Shown piece by piece: positions 21,692 to 63,998 of a DNA stretch of 64,000 nt. The position numbers and the translations under genes were made by a program. Numbering within the stretch: the first letter of the stretch is position 1; each line of letters starts with the position of its first letter. The stretch is from Sphingomonadales bacterium 39-57-19 (GTDB taxonomy: Bacteria; Pseudomonadota; Alphaproteobacteria; Sphingomonadales; Sphingomonadaceae): NCBI GenBank assembly GCA_002282385.1, contig NCJG01000002.1, forward strand, positions 124,001 to 188,000. Reading direction: 5' to 3'. Below the pieces are notes generated by a model that saw nothing but the letters and a program-made list of their open reading frames with translations, was not told the DNA's origin and searched no databases.

Positions 21692-21720
21692 TGGCGTCTA
21701 TGCAAAATCCTCCCCACAGC

Positions 21721-21799
21721 CGTCACCCTGAACTTGTTTCAGGGTCTTACTACTGCAACGTCGGAGAAATTAAGATGCTGAAACACGTTCAGCATGACG
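21721..21799. repeat. REP-like palindromic pair, family A copy 1
   Basis: Two inverted arms of about 29 bases: CGTCACCCTGAACTTGTTTC at 21721 onward and its near-complement ending GTTCAGCATGACG at 21799. Each arm is itself an imperfect palindrome (CCTGAA/TTCAGG). Three further copies in the window lie at 31965, 35142 and 53513. This copy sits between glyQ and glyS and would form a long hairpin in the shared mRNA. Confidence 0.85.
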
Positions 21800-21809
21800 G
21801 TGATTTAGC

Positions 21810-23930
21810 ATGACCGATTTTCTGCTGGAACTTCGCTCTGAAGAAATCCCTGCGCGCATGCAGGTGAAGGCCAAGGAAGATTTGGCGCGCTTGTTCAACG
21901 ACGCGCTGGCCAAGGCCGGACTGGCTGCGGCTTCGGTTGAAACCTTTGCCACGCCGCGCCGTTTGGCGTTGATTGCGACGGGGCTACCGCTGGCGACAGA
22001 CGCGGTTTCCGAAGAAACTAAAGGACCAAAAGTCGGCGCGCCGCCACAGGCGATGGAGGGTTTCCTCCGCAAAGCCGGCCTGACGCAAGATCAGCTGATC
22101 GAACGCGATGGCGTGTATTTCGCGGTCGTGGAAAAGGCAGGGCGTCAGACCGCTGATGTTCTGGCTGAGGCGATTCCGGCGATTATCCGTGCGTTCCCAT
22201 GGCCAAAGTCGCAACGTTGGGGCGCGGGGTCCGCTTCGACGGAAAGTCTGCGCTGGGTCCGCCCGTTGCAAGGTATCGTCGCGATACTCGGCGATGATGT
22301 CGTGCCATGCGAGATCGAAGGCATCGTCAGCGGCACGGCGACGATGGGACACCGGTTCCACCACAGCGGCCCTGTCACTATTGGTAACGCAGGCGACTAT
22401 GCTGAAAAGCTCCGCGACGCCCATGTCCTCGTCCATTTCTCCGAACGCTGCGCGCTTATTCGCGACGGCGCAAAGGCGGCTGCGGCGGCCGCGGGGCTGA
22501 CATTGGTTGCGGATGAAGGCCTGGTCGTCGAAAATGCCGGGCTAACCGAATGGCCCGTGCCCATGCTTGGCCGGTTCGACCCCGCGTTTTTGGAAGTGCC
22601 GCAAGAAGTCATTCAGCTGACCGCGCGCGTAAACCAGAAATATTTTGTCTGCCATGACAGTGCGGGCAAGCTTGCCAACGCCTTTGTCTGCACCGCGAAT
22701 ATCGCTGCACATGACGGCGGCGCAGCGATTGTTGCGGGCAATGAAAAGGTGCTCGCCGCGCGCTTGTCCGATGCCAAATTCTTCTGGGAACAGGACCTTA
22801 AGGTCGCGTTGGACGATCAGGCAACGAAGCTTACGCAGATCACGTTCCACGAAAAATTGGGCAGCGTGGCCGACAAGGTCGAACGCGTTGCCAGGCTGGC
22901 GCGCTGGTTGGTCGAAGAAGGCATATTAGGTCCGTGTTCCCCGGCGCAGGCCGGGGCCCAGCCCGCAAACAATGATTCCTCTGATAAGGTTCTGGACCCC
23001 GGCCTTCGCCGGGGAACACAAGAGCTGGCGGACCAAGCCGAACGCGCGGCGCGGCTGTGCAAGGCTGACCTCGTCACCGGCATGGTCGGCGAATTCCCCG
23101 AATTGCAGGGACTGATGGGCGGTTACTACGCCCGCGCGCAGGGCGAAACCGATGCCGTCGCCGACGCGGTCCGCGACCATTACAAGCCCGTCGGGCAGGG
23201 CGACGAAGTGCCCACCGCGCCGGTCACTGTGGCGGTCAGCTTGGCGGATAAGCTGGATACGCTGGCACAATTCTTTGCCGCCGGCATGCCGCCCACGGGT
23301 TCGAAGGATCCGTTCGCATTACGCCGTGCGGCCATCGGCTTTTTGTCACTGCTGCTTCAAAACGACCTGCGCTGTTCACTCAAGGATATGCTCTTGGCAA
23401 CTGGAGCCGGAAATAGCTTCGACAGCTTGGAAGAATTTTTGGTCGATCGCCTCAAAGTCCAACAGCGTGAAGCGGGCGTGCGGCACGATTTGATTGATGC
23501 GGTGTTTAGCCTTGGCGGTGAGGATGATCTTGTCCGGCTGCTCGCGCGGGTGAAGGCATTGCAGGCATATATCACGACAGCCGAAGGCGCGAATTTGTTG
23601 GCGGCGTATAAGCGTGCGGCGAACATATTGAAGGCAGCGGACGGTGTTGACGCCGCTGCACCCGCTCCGGCGGATTTGGTTGCTGAAGAGCGTGCGCTCC
23701 TCACCGCGCTCGACACCGCCGCACCCAATGCCGCGGCCGCCGTCGATGCCGAAGATTTCGAAGGCGCAATGGCGGCGCTTGCCAGCCTGCGCGCGCCCAT
23801 CGATGCATTTTTTGACGGCGTGATGGTGAACGACGAAGACCCTGCGAAGCGGGCGTTTCGTTTGGGCTTGCTGGCGCGGTTCCGCGATGCGGTAACGCAA
23901 GTGGCAGATTTTTCGAAGGTTGAGGGGTGA
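21810..23930 (+). CDS. glyS: Glycyl-tRNA synthetase beta subunit with palindromic insertion
   Basis: A 706-residue beta subunit that binds tRNA-Gly; it starts with 'MTDFLLELRSEEIPARMQ' and ends with the anticodon-binding-type domain. Family blocks include 'YFVCHDSAGKLANAFVCTANI' and 'DLVTGMVGEFPELQGLMGGYYA'. Between 'LVEEGILG' and 'QELADQAERAARLCKAD' (about residues 375-405) lies an extra segment 'PCSPAQAGAQ...LDPGLRRGT' that is encoded by an 86-base palindromic repeat and keeps the frame open. Because this region is a surface linker in the family, the enzyme is probably active (inference). The stop is followed by another palindromic repeat and then ppdK. Confidence 0.97.
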   Translation: MTDFLLELRSEEIPARMQVKAKEDLARLFNDALAKAGLAAASVETFATPRRLALIATGLPLATDAVSEETKGPKVGAPPQAMEGFLRKAGLTQDQLIERDGVYFAVVEKAGRQTADVLAEAIPAIIRAFPWPKSQRWGAGSASTESLRWVRPLQGIVAILGDDVVPCEIEGIVSGTATMGHRFHHSGPVTIGNAGDYAEKLRDAHVLVHFSERCALIRDGAKAAAAAAGLTLVADEGLVVENAGLTEWPVPMLGRFDPAFLEVPQEVIQLTARVNQKYFVCHDSAGKLANAFVCTANIAAHDGGAAIVAGNEKVLAARLSDAKFFWEQDLKVALDDQATKLTQITFHEKLGSVADKVERVARLARWLVEEGILGPCSPAQAGAQPANNDSSDKVLDPGLRRGTQELADQAERAARLCKADLVTGMVGEFPELQGLMGGYYARAQGETDAVADAVRDHYKPVGQGDEVPTAPVTVAVSLADKLDTLAQFFAAGMPPTGSKDPFALRRAAIGFLSLLLQNDLRCSLKDMLLATGAGNSFDSLEEFLVDRLKVQQREAGVRHDLIDAVFSLGGEDDLVRLLARVKALQAYITTAEGANLLAAYKRAANILKAADGVDAAAPAPADLVAEERALLTALDTAAPNAAAAVDAEDFEGAMAALASLRAPIDAFFDGVMVNDEDPAKRAFRLGLLARFRDAVTQVADFSKVEG
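22934..23019. repeat. Palindromic element inside glyS, family B
   Basis: Arm 1 (22934-22961) begins GTGTTCCCCGGCGCAGGCC; the reverse complement of arm 2 (22992-23019) begins GTGTTCCCCGGCGAAGGCC. The 28-base arms differ at two positions and flank a 30-base centre. Such elements normally lie between genes; here it is translated in frame within glyS. Confidence 0.88.
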
Positions 23931-23937
23931 CGCGAAA

Positions 23938-24046
23938 CTCCCCTCCCGCAAGCGGGAGGGGTCGGGGGTGGGCATCTGCCCTAACCGTCGCAAAGCTCGC
24001 CCAAAGGCGAGCCCCACCCCTAGCCCCTCCCGCCTGCGGGAGGGGA
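23938..24046. repeat. Palindromic repeat between glyS and ppdK, family C
   Basis: Arm 1 (23938-23973) starts CTCCCCTCCCGCAAGCGGGA and arm 2 (24011-24046) is its approximate reverse complement, ending GCCTGCGGGAGGGGA. Each arm contains its own CCCTCCCGC/GCGGGAGGG hairpin. It fills the 130-base gap between glyS and ppdK, and its codons make a spurious 47-residue extension in frame with ppdK. Confidence 0.85.
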
Positions 24047-31964: not shown

Positions 31965-32040
31965 CGTCACCCTGAACTTGTTTCAGGGTCTTACTACCGA
32001 CGTTGAAAAAGTAAGATCCTGAAACAAGTTCAGGATGACG
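31965..32040. repeat. REP-like palindromic pair, family A copy 2
   Basis: Starts CGTCACCCTGAACTTGTTTC and ends AAACAAGTTCAGGATGACG, a near-perfect inverted pair with a spacer of about 20 bases. It sits between the convergent phosphatase and crtB genes, where it could act as a bidirectional terminator. Confidence 0.86.
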
Positions 32041-35141: not shown

Positions 35142-35212
35142 CGTCATCCTGAACGTGTTTCAGGATAACAGGCGACCCCATTTTGTTATCCCGAAACAAG
35201 TTCGGGATGACG
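35142..35212. repeat. REP-like palindromic pair, family A copy 3
   Basis: Starts CGTCATCCTGAACGTGTTTC and ends GAAACAAGTTCGGGATGACG. It lies between crtY and crtI, inside what should be one transcript, and may alter the ratio of the two proteins by stabilising or terminating the mRNA (inference). Confidence 0.84.
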
Positions 35213-52398: not shown

Positions 52399-52526
52399 AC
52401 CGTAGCCCTGAGCAGCAGTTGCGAAGCAATTGCGTCTGACGAAGGGTGCTTCAACATTTGCGCTACCGCCGATACACACCCTTCGACGGGCGCGGTCGCT
52501 GCGCGCCCGCTGCTCAGGGCTACGGT
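52399..52526. repeat. Nested palindromic repeat, family E
   Basis: Outer arms: TACCGTAGCCCTGAGCAGC (52399-52417) and GCTGCTCAGGGCTACGGT (52509-52526). Inner arms: GACGAAGGGTG (about 52438-52448) and CACCCTTCG (52477-52485). It fills the gap between the NlpC/P60 gene and argC on the same strand and would fold into one long cruciform or RNA hairpin. Confidence 0.83.
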
Positions 52527-62211: not shown

Positions 62212-62427
62212 ATGAGCAGCTTTACCCTGATGAATTGGCAAGACCATTTTTGGACTTCTTTGTCCGCGGCGTCGGCATTACTGGTGCTGATTAGCAGTGT
62301 TGCGGACCGGCGGCGCCATAAACGCACTAAACTCGATCAGGTCGGTATAATGCCGTGGACCGGAATCACCGTATTTTCTGTGCTTATTACTGTATTGGCA
62401 GCTGCGTTGGCGATTAAAGGGCTTTAG
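62212..62427 (+). CDS. Small two-helix membrane protein
   Basis: A 71-residue protein with hydrophobic helices near residues 12-30 and 49-68 and a basic loop 'DRRRHKRTKLDQ' between them. It begins 21 bases after the Nit-family gene. Its TAG shares bases with a perfect palindrome that also contains the cpaF stop. Unknown function. Confidence 0.6.
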   Translation: MSSFTLMNWQDHFWTSLSAASALLVLISSVADRRRHKRTKLDQVGIMPWTGITVFSVLITVLAAALAIKGL

Positions 62428-62467
62428 GGTCAGGACCTATTAAATGCACCTAATAGGTCCTGACCCT
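62426..62467. terminator. Perfect 17-bp inverted repeat, bidirectional terminator candidate
   Basis: AGGGTCAGGACCTATTA (62426-62442) and TAATAGGTCCTGACCCT (62451-62467) pair perfectly with an eight-base loop. The repeat overlaps the stop codons of the convergent genes on both sides. It lacks long U tracts. The sequence resembles REP-type repeats tied to IS200-like transposases (recollection), so its origin may be mobile. Confidence 0.7.
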
Positions 62468-63998
62468 AGCCGAGGCACGCCTCAAGGAACGGCTGGTCAA
62501 ATCCGAACTGCCGCGCCTTTTCCAGAGTATAGGGACGAACGCCACCCGCGACCCATTCACCGTGGATTTTGCCGTCAGAATCTTCATCGCGATATTCAAA
62601 TTTGAACAGATCCTGCGTAACAATGACGTCGCCTTCCATCCCGATTACCTCGGTAATCTGGGTGGTGCGACGTGAACCATCGCGCAAACGCTTCACCTGA
62701 ACGATAAGGTCGACCGATTCCGCGATCTGTCGCGAAATGGCTTCTTTGGGTATTTTGATATCGCCCATCATGATCATGTTTTCCATACGACCCAAGCACT
62801 CGCGCGGGTTGTTGGCGTGGAGCGTACACATGGATCCATCATGACCGGTGTTCATTGCGGCGAGGAGGTCGAAACATTCCGCGCCACGAATTTCGCCCAA
62901 GATGATCCGGTCAGGGCGCATACGCAATGCGTTCTTCACAAGGTCACCGATCGTGATCGCGCCATCGCCTTCCAAGTTGGGAGGGCGCGTTTCAAGCGGG
63001 AGCCAATGCGGCTGTTGAAGACGAAGTTCGGCAGCATCTTCAATCGTCAGAACGCGCTCGCCGGGGTCAATCATTTTGGACAAAGCGTTCAGCATTGTCG
63101 TTTTGCCGGAACCCGTACCGCCTGAAATGACGATATTCATCCGGCTGGCCCCGGCAATCTTTAATGCCGTTGCCATGGGTTCGCTCATCGAACCAAAGCC
63201 CTTCAACATGTCGATTGTGATTGGCTTTTCGGAAAATTTACGAATGGAGATGGCAGTGCCGCGCAACGATAACGGCGGAACAATGACGTTCACGCGGCTA
63301 CCATCTTTCAGTCGGGCGTCAGCCAAAGGTGTGGTCTGGTCGACGCGGCGACCGACTTGGTTCACGATGCGCTGCGCGATCTGGAACAAATGCTCTTCGT
63401 CACGAAACTGGATCGGCGCAATCTGCAGCTTCCCCTTTTTTTCGATATAGGTCTGCAACGGGCCATTGACCATGATATCGGTAATGTCCGGATCGCTGAG
63501 CAACTCTTCAAGCGGACCGAAGCCGAGCAGTTCGTCGACGAGCACTTTTTCCAAAGCAAATTGTTCGCGGCGGTTAAGCGTCAGCTTGAGTTCGGCCAGC
63601 ACTTCAAGAATGATGGGGCGGAACTCTTCAGTCAGCTCTTCTTTATTCAGCGATGCCGCCGCTTCGGGGTCCACACGCTCCAAAAGACGCGGGAGAACCT
63701 GTTCTTTGATTTTATGTACCGACGCTTCAAATCCTTGGGGACCTTCATCGACTGGTGCCGCGTTGTTTGCACGGTCTGACAAGCGCGACATCGCTTCCTG
63801 CATGGCGGTCTGTGGACCGCCGTTGCTGCCGCCGGGTAAGTTTGCCGATTCAATGGGTGGAAATTGTTCGCCACCGCCCGTCGTTTGCGGGTACTCTGGC
63901 TGTTGCGCAATCGAGGGCCCACTGCCGGTCATGGGGCGCGCCACGCCAAATGATGAGCGCCCTACAGACAAGCCTGGTTTCTTCCCAAATGCGCTCAC
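62466..63998 (-). CDS. cpaF: CpaF family pilus assembly ATPase
   Basis: A 510-residue type II/IV secretion ATPase of the Flp/tight-adherence pilus system. A low-complexity N-terminal 80 residues precede the all-alpha domain; Walker A is 'ISGGTGSGKTT' at residues 291-301, with 'TIEDAAELRLQQPHW' (Asp box) and 'RPDRIILGEIRGAE' (Walker B) after it. The start is a GTG two bases from the window edge, so the rest of the tad/cpa cluster should lie beyond. It powers pilus extension or retraction. Confidence 0.95.
   Translation of the reverse strand: MSAFGKKPGLSVGRSSFGVARPMTGSGPSIAQQPEYPQTTGGGEQFPPIESANLPGGSNGGPQTAMQEAMSRLSDRANNAAPVDEGPQGFEASVHKIKEQVLPRLLERVDPEAAASLNKEELTEEFRPIILEVLAELKLTLNRREQFALEKVLVDELLGFGPLEELLSDPDITDIMVNGPLQTYIEKKGKLQIAPIQFRDEEHLFQIAQRIVNQVGRRVDQTTPLADARLKDGSRVNVIVPPLSLRGTAISIRKFSEKPITIDMLKGFGSMSEPMATALKIAGASRMNIVISGGTGSGKTTMLNALSKMIDPGERVLTIEDAAELRLQQPHWLPLETRPPNLEGDGAITIGDLVKNALRMRPDRIILGEIRGAECFDLLAAMNTGHDGSMCTLHANNPRECLGRMENMIMMGDIKIPKEAISRQIAESVDLIVQVKRLRDGSRRTTQITEVIGMEGDVIVTQDLFKFEYRDEDSDGKIHGEWVAGGVRPYTLEKARQFGFDQPFLEACLG

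Follow-up and report, generated by a model that had tools for sequence, protein, structure and literature searches.

A REP-like palindromic doublet in frame within glyS, and recurrent insertions in the same GlyS loop of Sphingomonadaceae

The palindrome within glyS

The window analyzed in this study is a 64-kb stretch of DNA from a sphingomonad genome (G000), for which the nearest named records among those listed were Sphingomonadaceae bacterium PASS1 and Sphingorhabdus species, in agreement with the sphingomonad origin proposed by the initial annotation. It contains glyS (TIGR00211, 711 bits, cut-off 300), inside which that annotation had described an 86-base palindrome with 28-base arms and two mismatches. 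Its coordinates, arms and fold were all reproduced here. The features of the locus are as follows:

21720..21800, unstranded: different palindrome of the CGTCACCCTGAACTTG type, between glyQ and glyS
21810..23930, + strand: glyS, glycine--tRNA ligase beta subunit with insert, 706 aa
22934..23019, + strand: REP-like doublet of family A, 86 nt, in frame
22934..22961, + strand: left arm, an imperfect palindrome by itself, CCCCGGCgcaGGCCGGGG
22962..22991, + strand: spacer between the arms, variable from copy to copy and with faster divergence than in the arms
22992..23019, + strand: right arm, inverted, CCCCGGCCTTCGCCGGGG
22935..23018, + strand: element-encoded glyS codons 376-403, with residues 380-399 (pLDDT <50) inside
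23939..24046, unstranded: different palindrome of the CCCCTCCCGCAAGCGGGAGGGG type, between glyS and ppdK

The two 28-nt arms are 93% complementary and are separated by 30 nt. The predicted RNA fold of the element reaches -62.6 kcal/mol, compared with -37.9 +/- 3.8 kcal/mol for 200 shuffled sequences (z = -6.55), none of which equalled it. The 706-aa ORF, which contains CSPAQAGAQPANNDSSDKVLDPGLRRGT, runs uninterrupted through the element and would gain about 29 residues from it, close to the 30 or so noted before. Such an open frame is unremarkable because in this element stops close a single frame out of six.

Seven inverted repeats in the 64-kb window had a score of at least 14 (0, 0, 1, 0 and 0 in five triplet shuffles), and the glyS palindrome scored 22. 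Further strong inverted repeats, of several palindrome types, were observed at window positions 31965-32040, 35142-35212, 52399-52526 and 62425-62468. The CCCCTCCCGCAAGCGGGAGGGG-type palindrome located behind glyS also occurs within the glyS gene of a genome of the same genus (G025). The element had no match in plasmid and phage records at E 1e-5. An Rfam identity was considered and rejected, as all matches were under the family cut-offs and nearly all of them were microRNA models that fit hairpins.

Comparison of the glyS site among relatives

We searched for GlyS in 61 genomes and found it in 59 (no match in G002 and G022); three genomes with pieces only (G029, G038 and G055) were left out. 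The same-genus set comprised 37 genomes including G000, and the glyS site was readable in 33. Twenty-two of these sites are insert-free, as expected from the earlier proposal of a palindromic insertion in a sphingomonad core gene, five carry family A (G000, G014, G023, G024 and G026), and six carry other palindromes (G025; G013 and G028; G036; G010 and G035). Among 21 labelled order-level relatives, 20 sites are free and one is short, and none has the element. It had been argued that conservation of the segment in GlyS across distant families would make it a native loop; we found no such conservation of the segment across families, although other palindromes fill the site in much of Sphingomonadaceae. 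Judged from these alignments, the 86-nt segment is an insertion and not a native loop.

The initial annotation had also anticipated that close relatives would reveal both an element-free version and an exact duplication at the junctions. The former was found. On the other hand, the KGAS/KGAT codons of the relatives are replaced in G000 glyS without duplication, and no target-site duplication could be recognized by eye, in comparison with relatives, at the glyS junctions or at those of the two other genes described below, although these insertions may be too old. One genome placed among the carriers in the tree (G027) is insert-free, and therefore loss or exchange happens.

Additional copies in the same genome

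Four full copies of family A are present in the 2.31-Mb G000 genome, three of them in frame within conserved genes. The other copies are related to the glyS element. The search for intergenic copies suggested by the initial annotation returned one full copy, behind sucD, with a lone arm about 400 bp beyond it. Besides glyS, one copy lies in the gene of a ligase-associated DEXH helicase (RSPAQAGVQ...GNT; named after TIGR04121, the best match of a partial ORF) and another in a putative carboxyltransferase gene (CSPAQAGAQ...GAR). In the alignment of ten helicase loci, family A is present in G000, G013 and G014, a different palindrome in G002, and six loci are empty. The G002 palindrome (L229) belongs to family B and occupies the place where G000 has family A, so that glyS is not the sole gene with a shared acceptor site. 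The carboxyltransferase alignment (n = 9) has two rows with the insert and seven without it, and the insert stands in place of about eight native codons.

A family A-like segment in pdhC (C1:398228) was also considered as an insertion, but relatives have nearly equal length there and it was excluded from the count. A small ORF adjoins the intergenic copy (L114, 1749-2039); we take it to resemble a GIY-YIG protein from its motif, and it had no NCBIfam match at E 1e-10.

The glyS loop in Sphingomonadaceae

To extend the comparison, 136 GlyS proteins were collected, six duplicates were removed, and the 130 distinct sequences were aligned. Labels were given to 126 rows; three proteins shorter than 640 aa (G020, G037 and L176) were dropped and G013 was left unlabelled because of runs of N, although its insert could be seen. 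The 105 labelled rows that lie outside the order-level set were taken as Sphingomonadaceae. The loop carries an insert in 48 of them, is free in 54 and short in three, a share that is not an unbiased estimate since the rows include the best 80 matches of one scan. The short forms, such as KSSALRGEEL in L189 and PPLPQAGGAGGG in L148, look like remains of inserts.

An inverted repeat score of at least 12 was reached by 40 of the 48 loop inserts (missed by eight), compared with 2 of 480 windows of matched length taken within these genes. By sequence, the inserts could be sorted into eight or more families (A, B, C, D, D2, D3, E and F; the labels are our own and were assigned by motif), and five inserts were classified as 'other'. 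When 74 of 80 loci were examined for placement (six duplicates excluded), 39 strong palindromes were found in glyS, including 26 at residues 382-399, 12 at residue 620 and one elsewhere; the neighbouring genes had one in 74 kb (glyQ) and none in 170 kb (ppdK). Insert arms shared 16-mers with flanking sequence outside glyS in 27 of 40 cases, compared with 22 of 400 random 26-mers of glyS.

Close sisters differ at this position: L138 has family C and L139 family D, and among L193, L157 and L152 the states are C, D and free, respectively. On a quick tree of the 126 rows, built from 605 columns with the insert sites omitted, there are 30 changes between insert and free and 47 state changes in total, in which gain and loss are indistinguishable. 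These comparisons show the glyS loop to be a recurrent acceptor for many palindrome families in Sphingomonadaceae.

Other positions of GlyS also vary. Around residue 619 a second palindrome acceptor was observed, where 22 of 44 inserts pass the palindrome threshold. GlyS is length-variable near residue 530 as well, with 57 inserts of at least 12 residues that look unrelated between species; none of the 57 passes the threshold, and this site was rejected as a palindrome acceptor, its variability being of a different kind. Another in-frame palindrome, of the GTGCTGAGCCTGTCGAAG type, is present near residue 184 in L066 and L089 (G010 and G035).

Structure of the loop

An AlphaFold2 model built with 49 sequences had a mean pLDDT of 91.1, and Foldseek ranked GlyRS structures at the top. 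Values below 50 were confined to residues 380-399, flanked by helices 353-369 and 404-416, and the alignment with E. coli GlyS is interrupted between chain residues 378 and 384. The HD domain is given as residues 341-540 in the description consulted (PMC8464048), and the tRNA contacts named in the relevant passages of another report, such as 406, 409, 439, 473-482 and 531, do not include 379-383 (PMC9908026). The insert site is probably a tolerant surface loop between two HD-domain helices.

tRNA 3' ends in the loop

Some inserts are of a different nature. In the first set of sequences, four glyS inserts (L127, L162, L185 and L188) open with a tRNA-Met-like 3' end. A junction pattern, covering the sense orientation, matched 8 of 397 Sphingomonadaceae genomes, from eight genera, and all eight matches lie within glyS; three of these genomes are those of L162, L185 and L188. 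Comparison of four cases with the tRNA genes of the same genomes revealed 25-33 nt alike, with the right boundary at -1 to +2 of the CCA end and the left boundary at a shared GTCGGGGG or GGTTC. These are 31 nt of tRNA-Met stopping at CCA in G263 (L259), 33 nt of tRNA-Met with CCA and two further bases in G061 (L127), 30 nt of tRNA-Arg(CCT) stopping one base short of the terminal A in G092 (L257), and 25 nt of tRNA-Arg(CCG) stopping at CCA, without a palindrome, in G107 (L253). All four are in frame. As three tRNA species are involved, copying or conversion must have taken place three times or more. The insert of G262 differs from its own tRNA-Met by a few bases, and L128 looks by eye like another, degraded case.

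A ready-made source, in which a tRNA gene is followed by a CGTC repeat within 15 nt, was sought and rejected: the pattern occurred in 3 of 298 genomes, one of the three being glyS itself, and the other two lacked a tRNA T arm and gave no tRNA by ARAGORN. No tRNA gene with a CGTC repeat of the glyS type just behind it was found in the 298 genomes.

The fixed boundary at CCA may point to an RNA template. It is conceivable that insertion into the glyS loop is RNA-templated, the tRNA ends being copies that start at the mature CCA terminus and reach as far as the T arm. A reverse transcriptase would jump template onto the tRNA end, joining tRNA ends to REP hairpins and glyS sequence, and the cDNA would recombine into glyS; REP transcripts might enter by the same route, which would explain their spread without a transposase. 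Three different tRNAs, a boundary at the CCA end in four of four cases, the GTCGGGGG or GGTTC left boundary and the failure to find a tRNA gene with a CGTC repeat directly behind it are in favour of this possibility, which we nevertheless regard as quite unlikely. The tRNA ends could instead stem from exchange between DNA sequences at short homologies, or be what is left of integrase sites in tRNA genes. If RNA templating were true, the glyS loop would be a natural recorder of such insertions.

Origin and maintenance of the inserts

It is very probable that a REP-like doublet was copied into a tolerant loop of GlyS, and that this acceptor has been used repeatedly in Sphingomonadaceae. The 86-nt segment would then be a short non-coding doublet, in which a variable spacer separates two inverted, imperfect palindromes, and would have been copied from another genome location into a structurally tolerant loop. 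Its survival may be attributed to GC-rich and mostly open frames, a frame-keeping length and the flexibility of the loop lying between two HD-domain helices. Unrelated palindrome families and tRNA 3' ends would enter the loop repeatedly, decay and be replaced, the survivors being filtered for frame and fold. We infer that the site is hot through tolerance, the inserts being survivors of selection, and not through its target sequence, and that the insertion is nearly neutral with respect to enzyme function.

Pure tolerance does not account for one observation, namely that the arms evolve more slowly than the remainder of glyS. Between G024 and G026, 0 of 54 arm positions and 9 of 30 spacer positions are changed, while the rest of glyS differs by 18.5% (for the arms, P = 1.6e-5 if they changed at the rate of the gene; of 15 pairs, this one is the most extreme); G000, G014 and G023 have no difference in 84 element positions and differ by 5-6% in the remainder of glyS. 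The arms could be held back by selection for the hairpin or by gene conversion among copies. If the former, the hairpin would be kept for an RNA or DNA role in glyS, such as ribosome pausing between domains, mRNA shielding or operon stoichiometry, and the different palindromes would be interchangeable suppliers of hairpins. The strong fold and the use of one position by many families are compatible with such a role as well. However, more than half of the Sphingomonadaceae rows (54 of 105) are insert-free at the site, near sisters of carriers included, the tRNA end of G107 occupies it with no palindrome, and gene conversion would likewise keep the arms similar, which makes a hairpin function very unlikely.

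A mobile family moved to a defined target by RAYT or another transposase, as a REPIN or MITE, would agree with the doublet anatomy, with the dispersal of copies in the genome and with the presence of Y1_Tnp genes in some genomes of the order (10 of 61). Yet Y1_Tnp matches are absent from G000 (controls match in 5/14) and from the other four same-genus carriers of family A, and occur in 3 of 37 genomes of the genus; moreover, neither a target duplication nor a constant target was seen, and insert starts are spread over several codons. Such a mobile family is therefore unlikely. Since the carriers have no Y1 transposase, native codons are replaced and the junctions are variable, classical transposition is disfavoured, and the doublet probably entered via illegitimate or short-homology copying. 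The differing length of the loop across the family might also recall a native variable loop that is palindromic by chance, but this is hardly credible given the excess of palindromes among loop inserts over matched windows and site 530, together with the copies of the element in other genes and between genes.

Relationship to known repeats

REPINs and BIMEs consist of two inverted REPs with a spacer and are linked to RAYT, and REP-like insertions have mostly been seen between genes. Family A has the same build, a pair of short, imperfect palindromes inverted relative to each other. In contrast to REPs and BIMEs, which are many, dispersed and mainly intergenic, it has only the four full copies mentioned above, three of them in genes, and unlike a RAYT-moved REPIN it has no RAYT in the G000 genome.

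REPs within ORFs have been described in the main text of a 2013 study, where over half of them form dimers or groups that code for 20-30 residues (PMC3733652). The genes concerned include tRNA synthetase genes in two sphingomonads, E. litoralis and S. alaskensis, and in two Xanthomonas species recB holds different REPs at roughly one position (PMC3733652). The glyS element of the window is a case of this known type of event, an in-frame REP in a gene. According to the same text, CGTC REPs are said to have no dedicated transposase (PMC3733652). By eye, our family F inserts (CGTCAyCCC) match its CGTC tag. The CGTC/GTAG tag is absent from the ends of family A, whose arms begin with GTGTTCCCC; other inserts at that glyS site start with CGTC. 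The word 'glycyl' does not occur in the main text of that study, whose gene list is in the supplement, and the parts of the main text consulted contain neither a family-wide hot spot nor tRNA ends (PMC3733652). Our literature searches returned nothing recognizable on a glyS hot spot or on tRNA ends in glyS. As far as searched, what is new here is an acceptor loop for multiple families across Sphingomonadaceae, together with the tRNA ends.

The parallel with RPE of Rickettsia drawn by the initial annotation holds for behaviour, i.e. palindromes in frame in conserved genes with the host protein kept, as presented in the sections consulted of PMC10969869. In those sections RPE are about 150 bp long and reported from Rickettsia, unlike the 86-nt glyS element of a sphingomonad (PMC10969869). 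No RPE model appeared among the NCBIfam matches at E<=1. The relation would be one of behaviour.

Across a whole bacterial family, a single short loop of this essential enzyme has accommodated many repeats of unrelated families as well as tRNA ends, in frame and with free sisters close by, and its inserts amount to an insertion scan that nature has carried out on a synthetase. The glyS loop supplies comparable junctions for studying the copying mechanism, and with it the spread of REP-like sequences where no transposase is present. It should also be kept in mind in annotation that stretches such as SPAQAG, PAKAG or DPGLRRG in proteins of sphingomonads could be repeats rather than domains.
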